DNA of 29,779 nt, from the IMG/VR virus record IMGVR_UViG_3300050821_005403, positions 1-29,779 of that record. One strand, written 5' to 3'. This stretch comes from a virus. This document shows positions 2,834 through 10,187 of this stretch, one piece after another. A model generated the notes under the pieces. It saw only the letters and a program-made list of their open reading frames with translations. It did no database searches and was not told where the DNA came from. Position 1 is the stretch's first letter. Each line of letters starts with the position of its first letter. The translations under genes and the position numbers were made by a program.

Positions 2834-3558
2834 TGTGACTTCGTCGCACAGTAGTCGGCGGCCGCCAGGAACCAGATGGCGGAGACCACAATGAGCAGCG
2901 CGCCCGCGACCCACTTAGCGACGGTGTGGTGCCCGCTGAAGAAGACCAGCGCGCTGAACAGTGCCAGCAGGACCGACGGCGGGAAGCTGAAGATCCCGAC
3001 CAGGAGCTTGCGGTGGTCCTTCAGCCACTTGCCCAGGTCCGGCTCGTCAGCGCCGGGGGCCATGGAGCCGTGGTACTTCTTCTCCTGCCGCATCGGCGGC
3101 AGGTCGTCCATGACGGCGGCTAGCTGCTTGGCCGTCCGCGCCTCGTTGACGTAGGCGACCCGGCGGTCGTACTCGCCGTCCTCGCTTTCGAGGAAGTAGC
3201 CGTTCACCTGAAGCTCGGCGAGCCACTCATGCGCGCGTGCCCGGTGCTTGTCCCCGATGCGCTCCTCGGAGATGATCCTGATCTCCTCAGGGAGCTGCTC
3301 GACATCAGACGGCACCTCCGTCTTGCGGATCTTGCGCTTCTCGGTCTCCGCCTTCACCTCGACGGTGCGCGTCTCCGACCTGCTGTAGTTCTGTGCTCCT
3401 GTGCTCATGCCTTCCCTTCCCATGATCTGCGGTACTGCTGTCGGGTACGGCTGGAACCGCCCGGTCGCGATGTCCGAGTCGCTGAGATAGTCGCCAGTCC
3501 AGCTGTCGAACCACCCGCCAGAGGGCATCTTGACGAACCGATCCGTGTAGGACCCCAC
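2830..3558 (-). CDS. DUF1707-like (SHOCT-type) two-helix membrane protein
   Basis: A 242-residue protein from GTG 3558, with AGGAG at 3570-3566 seven bases ahead. Residues about 101-155 (RARAHEWL through LAAVMDDLP) follow the DUF1707 pattern, a short helical domain common in actinomycete membrane proteins. Two membrane helices lie at about 184-208 and 212-234, close to the C-terminus. The N-terminal 60 residues are aromatic and Gly/Pro-rich, and 65-100 are highly charged. It is probably anchored in the host membrane with its large N-terminal part in the cytoplasm. A host-takeover, exclusion or envelope role is possible but not shown. It leads the minus-strand operon running to 2475. Confidence 0.65.
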   Translation of the reverse strand: MGSYTDRFVKMPSGGWFDSWTGDYLSDSDIATGRFQPYPTAVPQIMGREGMSTGAQNYSRSETRTVEVKAETEKRKIRKTEVPSDVEQLPEEIRIISEERIGDKHRARAHEWLAELQVNGYFLESEDGEYDRRVAYVNEARTAKQLAAVMDDLPPMRQEKKYHGSMAPGADEPDLGKWLKDHRKLLVGIFSFPPSVLLALFSALVFFSGHHTVAKWVAGALLIVVSAIWFLAAADYCATKSQ

Positions 3559-3607
3559 AATCGTTCTCCTCTCGTTTCCCTTCTCCAGATAGAAAGGCTA
3601 CACCAAC
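3559..3607. promoter_or_regulatory. Short divergent control region
   Basis: These 49 bases separate the minus-strand membrane gene from the plus-strand gene at 3608. They hold the Shine-Dalgarno of the minus gene (AGGAG, 3570-3566) and GAAAGG about 12 bases before the plus-strand ATG. There is room for only one compact promoter in each direction, with elements reaching into the opposite gene. I could not identify clear -35/-10 pairs. Confidence 0.3.
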
Positions 3608-4288
3608 ATGACCCTGTACGCTCGCGCGGATGTCTCGTACGTCTGCGTTCCCGCTGAGAGCGGAGGCTGCGGCACGCCGCATAGCCGACCCGTGATCAAC
3701 GGGGCACCAGCCCCTCAGTTCGTCCTCAACTGCCAGGCCTGCGAGAACTTCCTGCGCGCCGACATCGCCCGCTCCGGCGGCAGCAAGAAGGTGCGCACCA
3801 TCAACGGCGACTCCGGCCTCGCGCTCAAGGAGCGCTACCTCGGCCTGTGGGGCTCCTCGCCGGACACGGTCCCTGAGGCTCCCGACGACGAGCTCAAGCG
3901 GGAGCACGACGAGCAGGCGATGGTCACCAAGAACGCCGCCAGCCAGACCCAGACCCTCGCCCAGATCGGTGACGCGGTCAAGGGCAACGCCGAGCTGATG
4001 GAGAAGTTCATCGAGCTACAGCTCGCGCTGGCGAAGAACGAGCAGTCGCGCCAGGCGGAGGCGCAGCTCGCCGTGCCGCCTCTCCCTGCCGGTGAGCAGA
4101 AGCGTGCCGAGCCGCGCATGTACGAGTACCAGGTCGGCGGCGTCCTCGCAGCGGAGAACTCCTACACCGCCGAGAGCCGCGCCTGCCAGGACTGCGGCAC
4201 CATGATCGAGCGCCAGCCAGGGCAGAAGGGCGCGCTGCCGTGGCGCTGCCCTGACTGCAAGGCGGCAAAGCGGCGGAAGGCCAGCTAG
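3608..4288 (+). CDS. Protein with N- and C-terminal cysteine clusters; ends in UAG with an in-frame extension
   Basis: A 226-residue protein starting at ATG 3608. The N-terminal 50 residues carry Cys13, Cys21, Cys42 and Cys45. The middle (about 90-150) is acidic, polar and probably helical. The C-terminus has a second zinc ribbon, CQDCG near 193 and CPDC near 214, followed by a basic tail KRRKAS. Its position at the start of a late-gene run ahead of the head-tail adaptor suggests a virion-assembly protein, but I do not recognise the family. It stops at TAG 4286-4288, and the same frame stays open for 64 codons after it (see 4286-4288). Confidence 0.65.
   Translation: MTLYARADVSYVCVPAESGGCGTPHSRPVINGAPAPQFVLNCQACENFLRADIARSGGSKKVRTINGDSGLALKERYLGLWGSSPDTVPEAPDDELKREHDEQAMVTKNAASQTQTLAQIGDAVKGNAELMEKFIELQLALAKNEQSRQAEAQLAVPPLPAGEQKRAEPRMYEYQVGGVLAAENSYTAESRACQDCGTMIERQPGQKGALPWRCPDCKAAKRRKAS
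4286..4288 (+). promoter_or_regulatory. Candidate UAG readthrough site between two in-frame zinc-binding ORFs
   Basis: The TAG ending the 3608 ORF is followed, with no other base between, by an in-frame TTG and 63 further codons up to TGA 4478-4480. Because this genome carries at least one tRNA with a CUA anticodon (7657-7737), reading through would make a fused protein of about 290 residues. The alternative is ordinary initiation at TTG 4289 from GGAAGG at 4275-4280 (8-base spacing). The sequence alone does not decide. Confidence 0.35.
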
Positions 4289-4480
4289 TTGTCGCGGGCG
4301 GCGGGTCTGTGCAGGCTGTGCGGCGGTCCACGCCGTGGCAAGTCCGCCCGGCTCGCCGCCCCCGTCGCTGACTGCGGCCGCTGCGGCGTCGCGATCTGCC
4401 CCCGGCACATGGTCTGGGACACAGATCGTGCGCTCTGCACCAAATGTGCTCGGATACTCGGCAGGGCCAAGCAAGCCTGA
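4289..4480 (+). CDS. Cys-rich zinc-binding domain (63 aa), separate or as a readthrough extension
   Basis: The ORF runs from TTG 4289 to TGA 4478-4480. It is packed with metal ligands: CRLCG near residue 8, CGRCGVAICPRH near 29-40 and CTKCA near 50, a spacing reminiscent of B-box or double zinc-ribbon folds. A basic stretch RRGKSARL lies between the first two clusters. It is in the same frame as the 3608 ORF and directly follows that ORF's UAG, so it is either a translationally coupled small gene with a rare TTG start or a suppressed-stop extension. Array A follows 15 bases downstream. Confidence 0.55.
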   Translation: MSRAAGLCRLCGGPRRGKSARLAAPVADCGRCGVAICPRHMVWDTDRALCTKCARILGRAKQA

Positions 4481-7364: not shown

Positions 7365-7556
7365 CTACTTCTTCCGCTTGTCCCGGCGGGACGAGCCAGT
7401 GCAGTGCGTGAGATGAGCGAGGAGGGCCTGGCCGCCGTTCGAAACGCTGCGGCCGCAGCCCCACGGGCACATCCCGCTGGTGCGCTCGACTCCGTGCTTC
7501 TTCAGCCACGCGGCGAGGGTCTGGCTCTTGAGCTTGATGTCGCCTTTGCTCGGCAT
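7365..7556 (-). CDS. Small zinc-finger protein (63 aa)
   Basis: Minus-strand ORF from ATG 7556 to TAG 7365-7367. It encodes a basic helix (LAAWLKKHGVERT), then CPWGCG, HLTHC and a basic tail SSRRDKRKK. The CxxxC...HxxxC spacing fits a C2HC-type finger that could bind nucleic acid. It has the strongest ribosome-binding site in the window, an 11-base match to the 16S rRNA tail (7561-7571). It is the last gene of the minus-strand series following the tRNAs. If UAG were suppressed, 24 codons would be added before a TGA, running through the methyltransferase terminator. Confidence 0.65.
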   Translation of the reverse strand: MPSKGDIKLKSQTLAAWLKKHGVERTSGMCPWGCGRSVSNGGQALLAHLTHCTGSSRRDKRKK

Positions 7557-7656: not shown

Positions 7657-7737
7657 CGTCCCCGACGGGAATCGAACCCGTGCCGTCTTAGACGAACCGC
7701 TTTAGAGGCGGTCGCTCAGCCACTGAGCTTCGAGGAC
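7657..7737 (-). tRNA. Class II tRNA with CUA anticodon (putative amber suppressor, Ser-like)
   Basis: Reading down from 7737: acceptor GTCCTCG pairs with CGGGGAC (7664-7658) with one G-U pair; D arm GCTC/GAGC; perfect anticodon stem ACCGC/GCGGT around the 7-base loop CTCTAAA, giving U33 and anticodon CUA; long variable arm with a CGTC-TAA-GACG stem; T arm ACGGG/CCCGT with loop TTCGATT. A long variable arm plus discriminator G73 and a G1-C72 pair is the bacterial tRNA-Ser pattern, and SerRS does not read the anticodon, so serine insertion at UAG is a fair inference. Deviations are A rather than U at position 8 and T at 21. CCA is not encoded. Confidence 0.8.
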
Positions 7738-7742
7738 CAGCG

Positions 7743-7814
7743 AGCCCCTGGCGGGAGTCGAACCCGCGACGCGAAGGTTTAGAGTCAACCGCTCTGCCGC
7801 TGAGCTACAGGGAC
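7743..7814 (-). tRNA. tRNA-like gene with CUA in the anticodon loop but a degenerate anticodon stem
   Basis: Reading down from 7814: acceptor GTCCCTG/CAGGGGC (one G-U), TA at 8-9, D arm GCTC/GAGC, T arm GCGGG/CCCGC with loop TTCGACT. By standard numbering, positions 27-43 read GTTGA-CTCTAAA-CCTTC, so the loop matches the neighbouring tRNA and gives CUA, but only two of five stem pairs form. A shifted fold (GGTT/AACC) would put CUC in the loop without U33. It may be a decayed duplicate, a tRNA whose stem has been altered, or a tRNA-like RNA with another role. Class I variable loop; discriminator T; no CCA. Confidence 0.6.
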
Positions 7815-7857: not shown

Positions 7858-8061
7858 TTACGCACTCACAGGCGCGGCGTCAATCCGCTCCCGATGTGCC
7901 TCGTTCGCGACGGCGTCTCGCGCCGCCTTCCACTCGCCTTTCGACAGTGGCTGGCCGTGCAGTTGCTCGTGGACCTTCAGGGCGAACCGCAGGGTCGTGT
8001 TCCGCTTCGTGAGGTAGTCCAGCGCGATGCGCTGGCGCTCCTCCTTCAGGGACCTGGTCAC
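7858..8061 (-). CDS. Small charged helical protein (67 aa)
   Basis: From GTG 8061, immediately after the TGA of the hydrolase gene, with GAGGAGGTGA about seven bases upstream, to TAA 7858-7860. The sequence is highly charged and helical (MTRSLKEERQRIALDYL, then LRFALKVHEQLHG and EWKAARDAVANEAHRE), with no Cys and no membrane segment. It may bind RNA or the hydrolase encoded just before it. Not recognised. An ATG four bases earlier is in another frame and gives a shadow ORF. Confidence 0.6.
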   Translation of the reverse strand: MTRSLKEERQRIALDYLTKRNTTLRFALKVHEQLHGQPLSKGEWKAARDAVANEAHRERIDAAPVSA

Positions 8062-8391
8062 TCATCTCACCTCCTCTCGCTGAGAGAAGGCAAGCGGGTA
8101 CTTCCGGCACAGCCGCTCTGCGCCCTCGCCGGCGAGGGCTATCGCGGTGAGCTGGTTCCCGAGGTCGGGTTCCCGGAACTCCGCAGTGTCCGCGCTGGCG
8201 TAGCCCGCAAGGAACAGGAGATGGGAGAGGTGCTCCTCGTCCGGCACGACGAGCAGCACGACAGTGCAGTCGGGCGGAATCGGATGACCGGAGCAGAAGG
8301 TGATGGCGGCGTGCGCCGCCTGCACTGCCTGGTCACCGGGAGGAAGATCCTCGCGGGTGACGAGATACAGGCGATCAGTTACCTAGAACAT
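8062..8391 (-). CDS. PTH2-type peptidyl-tRNA hydrolase with in-frame UAG as third codon
   Basis: The sequence LYLVTREDLPPG, AVQAAHAAITF, then TVVLLVVPDEEHL and FREPDLGNQLTAIAL fits the PTH2 (Bit1-like) fold, which removes peptides from stalled peptidyl-tRNA. The first strand and the basic loop are encoded upstream of the first usable GTG (8325). Going back in frame, codons are CTG (8370), CGC, GAT, ACT, GTA, then TAG (8385-8383), TTC and ATG (8391). So a full-length enzyme needs UAG readthrough from ATG 8391, a rare CTG start, or a truncated start at GTG 8325 that would remove the first strand. The CUA tRNA genes lie downstream on the same strand. Array C abuts its 5' end. Domain call firm; start unresolved. 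Confidence 0.7.
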
Positions 8392-8395
8392 GGTC

Positions 8396-8645
8396 CTTAC
8401 CCTACCCTACCTCGCCGCGCCGTGCCAAGCCATGCCACGTCCCTGCCCTGCCACACCAGACCCTGCCGTGCCACACCGTACCCCGCCACGTCCCTGCCTT
8501 GCCCCGTCCCGCCCCGGCACGCCTGACCCCGCCACGGCTAATCCCCGCCCGCCCAGCCCCGCACCAGCCCGCCTGGCCGCGCCTAGCCAGACCTTGCCCC
8601 GCGCCTGCCTTGCCTCGCCACGCCGTGCCATGCCCGACCCAGCCC
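8396..8645 (+). repeat. Pentamer array C (CNNGC; longest)
   Basis: About 250 bp made almost entirely of CNNGC-type units (the same repeat as CCNNG in another register), such as CTCGC, CGCGC, CGTGC, CAAGC and CATGC. Six-base units (CACGTC at 8437-8442 and 8488-8493) shift the register. The left end reads CCTAC repeats, which on the minus strand is TAGGGTAGGG, and sits against the hydrolase ATG at 8391; TAGGGT at 8404-8399 is seven bases from that ATG. The right end reaches almost to the next plus-strand gene. Confidence 0.9.
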
Positions 8646-8679
8646 AGTGAGTCCATCCTATCTACCAAATCGGAGTTGT

Positions 8680-8930: not shown

Positions 8931-10187
8931 ATGACCATTCCAGCCGTTGGCCTGGTCGCGCCGGCCAGCAAGACCTGGCTCGGGGTAGGCCGAGAGGGAA
9001 CGATGGGACAGGCAGTCCTGCCGGTCCAGACGATTCCGCTGCTGAAGAACTCCTACCAGCCTGAGGATGTCCCGAAGTGGCTGCATGATGAGGCCATCCG
9101 GGGCTCCATGGCTCTGGTCTTCAATGATATTCAGGGCGTCGAGTCCTCGACCTTCTCTTACGGCGGCCCGGCCTTCCTGGACGTCGAGGGCTACTTCATC
9201 GACAACGTGTTCGGCGACCTGTCGTCCACCGCGCAGAACTACACCGGCACGACCACGACCGGAACCATCCCGCTCGCCATCGGCGCTACGGCGCTCGGCG
9301 TCGCGGGCACGGCAGGCTTCCCGACCGGGTTCTACGCGGCGATCGACCAGCCGTTCACCGGACTGACCGAGATCGTCGGCCCGATCACGACCACGGCGGG
9401 CACGATCAGCTTCACCGGCACGCCAACCCGGTTCGCGCACGCCAACGGCGGCACGGTCTCGGCAATCAACCCGGCGAGCGGCGGCCCGTACACGCACACG
9501 TGGAACATCCTGAACAACAGCTCAGGTCAGCCGCCGACGCACACCTTCACCGACTACACCTCGCTGACAACCACGGTCGGAGCCCGATCCTATGTCGGCG
9601 CGGCTGTCGGCGTGCTCGACATCACCGGCAACTCCGAGCAGCTGCTGGAGATGAAGATGACCGGGGACGCGTGGGTCTCCGCGCCAGCCTCGATCGCGCC
9701 GACCAACACTGTCTCCACCGCCATCCCGATCCCGAACTGGCGGTCCACCGTGACCGTCGCCGGCGGTCAGGTCTTCGACGTGGGCGAGTGGTCAGTCAGC
9801 ATCAAGCGGACGCTGCAGATCTACTGGACGGACCAGGGCAACACGCAGAACCCGTACATCATCGCCCGTGGTCCTCTCGACGCGACCGGAACCCTGAACT
9901 ACACAGTCCCGACCGACGAGTCGCCGCTGACGCAGATGCTGTCCAACACCCAGCCCACGCTGCTGATGTCGGTCAACAACGGCCTCGGCACCGCGTCTAC
10001 CAGCTATCTCAGCCTGACCATCGCCTGTCACACTTGCGCCTTCGAGAAGGCCAAGCCGGATCGCGGCGCTGTCCTGGTCGGGTACCAGGACGAATGGCAG
10101 GCAGTGGCGAACTCGACCAACTCCGGCGGCTCAGGCGGGCTCGGGCCGATCACGGTGACCCTGATCAACAACATTCCCACCTACTAG
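8931..10187 (+). CDS. Major tail (tube) protein
   Basis: A 418-residue protein from ATG 8931 to TAG 10185-10187. Its place directly before the frameshifting tail chaperones and its strand-rich, low-Cys sequence are those of a siphoviral tail tube protein. Residues about 105-180 (from GTIPLAIGATALG to ANGGTVSAI) look like an inserted beta module shared with the adaptor and a fibre protein. The C-terminal part (WSVSIKRTLQIYWT, LSLTIACHTCAFEKAKPD) fits the tube-domain end. GGAAGG-like bases are not obvious; GGTGGTGAG at 8919-8927 may serve as ribosome-binding site. A strong hairpin follows the stop by one base, as expected for a very highly expressed gene. Confidence 0.7.
   Translation: MTIPAVGLVAPASKTWLGVGREGTMGQAVLPVQTIPLLKNSYQPEDVPKWLHDEAIRGSMALVFNDIQGVESSTFSYGGPAFLDVEGYFIDNVFGDLSSTAQNYTGTTTTGTIPLAIGATALGVAGTAGFPTGFYAAIDQPFTGLTEIVGPITTTAGTISFTGTPTRFAHANGGTVSAINPASGGPYTHTWNILNNSSGQPPTHTFTDYTSLTTTVGARSYVGAAVGVLDITGNSEQLLEMKMTGDAWVSAPASIAPTNTVSTAIPIPNWRSTVTVAGGQVFDVGEWSVSIKRTLQIYWTDQGNTQNPYIIARGPLDATGTLNYTVPTDESPLTQMLSNTQPTLLMSVNNGLGTASTSYLSLTIACHTCAFEKAKPDRGAVLVGYQDEWQAVANSTNSGGSGGLGPITVTLINNIPTY

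Follow-up and report, generated by a model that had tools for sequence, protein, structure and literature searches.

What does a phage do with tRNAs that read a stop codon which it otherwise keeps as a stop? The question is raised by IMGVR_UViG_3300050821_005403, a 29.8-kb linear virus fragment of a soil phage with 67% GC content (its full 29,779 nucleotides constitute the window analyzed here), in which two adjacent tRNA genes, A and B, both carry CUA anticodons. Published accounts describe phages that carry amber suppressor tRNAs without any gene that appears to require them; CUA tRNAs of phages have been predicted to decode in-frame UAG codons in phage genes (PMC7886860, PMC9523058), and the authors describing Xanthomonas phage XacN1 could not identify a target for its suppressor tRNAs (PMC5852040). 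Here, we propose that the two window tRNAs are probably amber suppressors and form a two-part module with an adjoining gene for a PTH2-type peptidyl-tRNA hydrolase, a gene that is gated, that is, interrupted by an in-frame UAG soon after its start. While the tRNAs are of a known kind, the gated module would be a new form of suppressor-dependent phage gene expression, and we lean toward regarding it as a widespread, hitherto undescribed phage circuit that joins a suppressor tRNA to a hydrolase gene locked by the stop codon which that tRNA reads.

Two CUA tRNA genes occupy one site

Both tRNA genes are real, and their coordinates and description in the original prediction, which was made from the window sequence by itself, are right. 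Genes A and B score 55.9 and 47.4 bits against the Rfam tRNA model, both above the cut-off of 29 in the covariance scoring that had been named as a way to expose a pseudogene, and both pair the acceptor stem in full (7/7). The anticodon stem is complete in gene A (5/5) and reduced to 2/5 pairs in gene B, in keeping with the forecast of a clean CUA suppressor beside a degenerate partner. Gene A has the features of an amber suppressor fold (CUA anticodon, U33, and purine 37) and an extra arm of 4 bp with a UAA loop; gene B keeps CUA despite its broken anticodon stem. ARAGORN, suggested as a further check, bore out gene A, which it called as CTA, and missed gene B; its ‘Pyl’ label on gene A is anticodon-based only.

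A related phage locus, L003, carries two tRNA genes at the same site, both with CUA anticodons, which argues that the pair in the window is not a chance occurrence. The L003 counterpart of gene B (B′) is clean at 61.6 bits, and that of gene A (A′) is degenerate (25.2 bits, C33, and no normal D arm), yet A′ pairs both its acceptor (7/7) and anticodon (5/5) stems. The degenerate partner of the original prediction is thus found in the window, where gene B is worn, but this is not a fixed role, since the opposite copy is worn in L003; because one copy has decayed in each pair, and a different one in each phage, the two copies look redundant. All four genes keep CUA, with changes in the surrounding stems. 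The degenerate state of B and A′ might suggest that the tRNAs are decaying remnants with no decoding role. Given that one clean copy is kept per phage, that CUA and paired acceptor stems persist in all four genes despite their divergence, and that the surrounding block is co-linear in the window and L003, we consider this explanation extremely improbable.

Serine charging, which the original prediction had thought likely, was not supported by comparison of the tRNA bodies. With the anticodon set aside, gene A is nearest to class I threonine, lysine, and arginine phage tRNAs (28.5, versus 16.5 for serine), and A′ is missing the extra arm owing to a 9-base indel relative to gene A; we therefore reject a serine identity deduced from that arm.

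Relatives were gathered by protein searches, which yielded L003, L004, and then ~80 loci belonging to a large family of soil phages. Among these, tRNAs at this site occur only in L003. No further CUA tRNA was found in the ~80 loci or in the tRNA arrays read, where none of the tRNAs of the family relatives (which carry up to 37) has this anticodon. A search of viral contigs with the exact window tRNA pattern gave no match.

A hydrolase gene is interrupted by UAG at its third codon

The candidate target is on the strand of the tRNAs, two genes upstream of them. For an open reading frame (ORF) listed at 8062–8325, matching proteins turned up in a dozen loci selected solely for a CUA tRNA. The start given for this ORF is incorrect: apart from one UAG, the frame continues farther upstream. 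Read from there, the gene begins ATG TTC TAG GTA ACT GAT CGC CTG TAT CTC GTC ACC CGC in the window and ATG TAG GTT CAT GAG CGC CTG TAC CTC in L003. Both phages lack ATG, GTG, and TTG throughout the 19 codons that follow the UAG. The first internal start in both is a GTG at codon 20 after the UAG, within the conserved fold, and initiation there would drop the first β-strand (residues 4–10) together with the invariant residues R10, D12, and Q18. The stretch after the UAG encodes this first strand of the PTH2-type hydrolase; over the 18 codons past TAG, the window and L003 have seven identical codons, seven synonymous ones, and four amino-acid changes. With the in-frame UAG that an amber suppressor tRNA would need as its target, the gene at 8062–8391 is, judging from sequence, most likely what the CUA tRNAs serve. 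The original prediction had proposed UAG decoding at chosen genes and named none; the PTH2-like hydrolase gives this proposal a likely gene.

We assign the protein to the PTH2 type by family profile and predicted fold. Two gated homologs match Pfam family PF01981 at 1e-11 and 4e-8, the alignment profile matches the archaeal Pth2 structure 2zv3 at 1e-10, and the fold predicted for the hydrolase (predicted local distance difference test score of 93) has 2zv3, 3erj, 1q7s, and 1wn2 as its top matches, with query template modeling scores of 0.65–0.75. The RxD, Q, H, and T positions are kept.

The gated gene recurs in diverse phages

In a first sample, made up of loci picked only for a CUA tRNA plus the window and L003, 20 PTH2-type genes are TAG-gated, none is TAA- or TGA-gated, and 16 have an ordinary start. 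In a second sample of 79 loci, picked by PTH2 sequence in a search seeded with gated sequences, 41 are TAG-gated, one is gated by TAA, and one by TGA. A CUA tRNA lies within ~3 kb in 35/41 gated loci versus 9/38 other PTH2 loci (Fisher P 2.6e-8, although such P values overstate independence because the sequences are related). Wherever PTH2 loci have CUA tRNAs, these are on the hydrolase strand (44/44), at a median distance of ~550 bases. A second CUA tRNA is frequent, being present in 14 of these 44 loci, and XacN1 has two suppressor tRNAs in each terminal repeat (PMC5852040); a tRNA pair is therefore not peculiar to the window.

Fifty-three distinct phage PTH2 genes have a UAG soon after the start. 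Their general layout, shared by diverse phages, is ATG, zero to eight codons, UAG (at codons 2–10), a purine, and PTH2. The base after UAG is A in 30 and G in 23 of these genes, and C or T in none; classically, amber suppression is efficient when a purine lies 3′ of the codon. At the level of contigs, a PTH2-like gene is present in 36/48 CUA-tRNA contigs of at least 44 kb versus 1/43 CUA-less family relatives, which do not form a matched control; the single PTH2 among the latter is ungated. Thirty PTH2 loci were read in the long CUA contigs: 20 are gated, 9 ungated, and 1 partial.

Named phages share the layout. Mycobacterium phages Alice and Cane17 (ATG TAG GTG) and Myrna (GTG TAG GTG) have a CUA tRNA within ~300 bases, Tenacibaculum phage pT24 (ATG AAA TAG) has a CUA-type tRNA sequence ~2.6 kb upstream, and XacN1 carries ATG AAG TAG immediately ahead of the start annotated for ORF364, with paired CUA-type matches at both genome ends. 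A further phage locus, L125, likewise combines a gated PTH2 with a CUA tRNA. Such genes fall into an annotation blind spot, in that they are started late (pT24, XacN1, and Alice) or lose their first strand.

The same arrangement could be read differently: the UAG would end a very short leader ORF (ATG-x-TAG) as a genuine stop, the hydrolase would re-initiate at the next, non-canonical codon, and the tRNAs would be unrelated passengers. Codons that resemble a start do often follow the TAG (ATT in 20, GTT in 10, GTA in 6, ATA in 3, and GTG in 1; n=53), and GTG does so in Alice and Myrna, but GGC, AGC, ACT, ACA, GAA, and AAC also occur at this position. Re-initiation has no need of TAG in particular, yet 41/43 gates are TAG; nor does it need CUA tRNAs on the same strand, where all of them lie. 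Leader and gene, moreover, share one frame in the gated cases. We judge re-initiation very unlikely, and readthrough of the gate UAG by the suppressor tRNA highly probable on this comparative evidence.

A scan of CUA loci for gated ORFs outside PTH2 gave no overall TAG excess (19 TAG, 23 TGA, and 7 TAA). Individual cases do occur: a second family in CUA-tRNA phages (CKEVVFHFNK.HL.D.TIPMWVLK.HGETYYVNHV; L022:5710, L035:12216, L045:3385, and L096:1590) has TAG four to five codons past ATG, and two more TAG-gated genes (L050:1658 and L062:4950) resemble PTH2 variants that the profile missed.

Other suppressor and stop combinations were seen near PTH2. In L339, a TAA gate (ATG AAA AAA GCA TTA GAC AAC CAG TAA GTA; positions 2940–3000) lies upstream of the PTH2 core, and two tRNAs beside this gene (3485–3778) have 9-base anticodon loops containing UUA. 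This locus may be an ochre form of the module, in which case the gate codon may track the suppressor anticodon. In L290, L298, L306–L308, L317, and L320, an ungated PTH2 is followed by tRNAs with UCA-like loops, a broken 31–39 pair, and a 4-bp anticodon stem, perhaps opal suppressors. In L301, L305, L326, L338, and L353, PTH2 adjoins tRNAs whose anticodon loops are enlarged (called ‘aat’, ‘aaa’, and ‘ata’) and which may be unusual decoders, and Prevotella phages Lak-A1 and Lak-B9 (L388 and L389) have a UUA-anticodon tRNA ~0.6–0.7 kb upstream of PTH2 on the same strand. For phage Atu_ph07, which has a UCA suppressor and an archaeal-type Pth, no PTH2-like sequence was seen in the frame read at the annotated start.

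TAG is a working stop in the rest of the window

TAG ends ~30% of the called window genes, no less than in CUA-less relatives, and homologs of conserved genes, the tail tube among them, end at the TAG position. Coding cover is the same with TAG as a stop or read through (0.93/0.93). The homolog ends and the unchanged cover rule out general TAG recoding (genetic code 15). Stop identity drifts among relatives. An initial, unrestricted scan for readthrough homology was uninformative, as GC-rich DNA is conserved off-frame too and gave many false matches. Readthrough of the TAG-ended gene at 3608–4288 into a zinc-ribbon ORF at 4289–4480 was considered and rejected, as L003 and L004 have TGA directly before a TTG-starting ribbon. 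This small zinc-ribbon gene (4286–4480), kept in L003 and L004, has a TTG start right after the previous stop, an arrangement that resembles stop-start coupling.

In the window and L003, TAA or TGA follows the TAG end within 12 codons in 5/13 genes, versus 26/226 in CUA-less relatives. This excess of backup stops (Fisher P 0.016 and Mann-Whitney P 0.006, in an exploratory test on small numbers) hints at some real readthrough. It would also suit tRNAs that act mainly against the host, spoiling its genes by readthrough of host UAG codons with the phage shielded by backup stops, as these are likewise present in zeta crAss-like phages (PMC12386605). Small numbers and a gated hydrolase that would go unexplained make such a main role unlikely, though it may hold as well.

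Several observations weigh against the suppressor-tRNA/PTH2 module. On its own, the window hydrolase falls below the PF01981 cut-off and lacks the lysine of the canonical ‘GK’ motif, and its hydrolase activity is for that reason one that we infer. The ungated genes in the first sample (n=16) mark the gate as common in CUA loci and not as a requirement. The seeding of the second sample and the relatedness of the sequences also weaken the case. In 6/41 gated loci, two long contigs among them, the pattern search of the contig found no CUA tRNA. A downstream start is possible in the mycobacteriophages, where GTG directly follows TAG, and in XacN1, with an ATG five codons past it. Lastly, strong general suppression is hard to square with the share of window genes that stop at TAG. 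With these points taken into account, the module still seems to us, with reasonable confidence from the comparisons made, the best explanation of the locus.

Proposed mechanism and relation to known systems

In the mechanism that we propose, the suppressor tRNA would read the UAG of the hydrolase gene, and production of the hydrolase would depend on this tRNA being available in charged form and outcompeting release factor 1; the start-proximal UAG would act as a sensor. The hydrolase would recycle peptidyl-tRNA that drops off ribosomes at slow or failed UAG decoding, a protective enzyme thus made only when the phage suppresses UAG. Peptidyl-tRNA is often lost in early elongation, over the first codons, and peptidyl-tRNA hydrolase recycles it (PMC10192219); this would also explain a UAG at codons 2–10. 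We offer this clean-up purpose tentatively, as one that may well be wrong. The main alternative on purpose is that the hydrolase limits its own circuit by stripping peptidyl- or aminoacyl-suppressor tRNA, thereby capping UAG readthrough at a tolerable level. The shape of the circuit, with a tRNA-acting enzyme expressed only through that tRNA, would fit, as would the working TAG stops of the phage, and the active-site differences from canonical PTH2 allow for an altered substrate. Weak tRNAs alone, however, could limit suppression, and we regard feedback of this kind as rather unlikely.

In the autoregulation of release factor 2, too, the gene of a translation factor (prfB) carries a stop codon close to its start, and this codon senses the state of the process in which the factor takes part; prfB uses UGA and frameshifting, whereas the module would use UAG and a suppressor tRNA, in phages. 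Crass-like and related phages with translation table 15 also encode CUA tRNAs for in-frame UAG; in the window, by contrast, TAG acts as a stop in every other gene tested, and UAG belongs to one dedicated gene, at codons 2–10. Zeta crAss-like phages resemble the window in having a suppressor tRNA, no general recoding, and backup stops after TAG; that article leaves the purpose of the tRNA open, and the portion of it drawn on here includes no gated gene (PMC12386605). PTH2 has been described in jumbo phages and proposed to act in ribosome rescue, and the portion of that article cited here describes neither UAG gating nor pairing with CUA tRNAs (PMC7824862). We found no literature link between phage suppressor tRNAs and a UAG-gated hydrolase, in a coverage of the stop-codon recoding literature that was incomplete and may have passed over an earlier mention.

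If the module operates as proposed, it would illustrate how a phage with the standard code can reserve a suppressor for a single gene and leave the others unrecoded. A gated hydrolase near suppressor tRNAs would give many phages, among them some cultured on M. smegmatis, a specific target open to experiment, and the module hints at why phages carry PTH2 at all.

Genomic setting of the module

The tRNA pair is on the minus strand, within an otherwise plus-strand late region (Table 1). The minus-strand block runs methyltransferase, small Cys/His protein, tRNAs, 67-residue protein, and hydrolase. It is common to the window and L003 as a whole; the other relatives are without it. The interval from the tail-completion homolog to the tail tube measures 2.2–2.5 kb in the window and L003, and mostly 50–1300 bases elsewhere. 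Tail-tube protein identity to the window is 88% for L003 and 70% for L004.

Table 1. Coordinates of the module and of associated features in the window
Feature	Position	Strand	Description
63-residue Cys/His-rich small protein	7365..7556	-	Downstream of the tRNAs, same block; kept in L003
tRNA gene A	7657..7737	-	CUA anticodon, clean cloverleaf, short extra arm, G73; ortholog in L003
tRNA gene B	7743..7814	-	CUA anticodon, U73; degenerate here, clean in L003
67-residue conserved companion gene	7858..8061	-	Between hydrolase and tRNAs; homologs in L003 and L125
PTH2-type peptidyl-tRNA hydrolase (predicted), via UAG	8062..8391	-	ATG TTC TAG, then 106 codons to TGA
In-frame UAG gate (putative)	8383..8385	-	Hydrolase codon 3; G next (purine at +4)
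Shine-Dalgarno-like AAGGA	8394..8398	-	Upstream of the ATG at 8391-8389
TAG as true stop	10185..10187	+	Tail-tube gene end; all homologs end there or before; backup TGA three codons on

Named phages gave no near DNA match to the window. In the search for a host, bacterial genomes queried with the tail-tube protein gave no relative, and the query with PTH2 matched one contig of a Thermoplasmatales metagenome-assembled genome. C-rich low-complexity repeats (8400–8650) separate the minus-strand block from the tail genes. At the start of the late region, a gene at 116–1711 encodes a glycosyltransferase family 17 domain fused to an FkbM methyltransferase domain.
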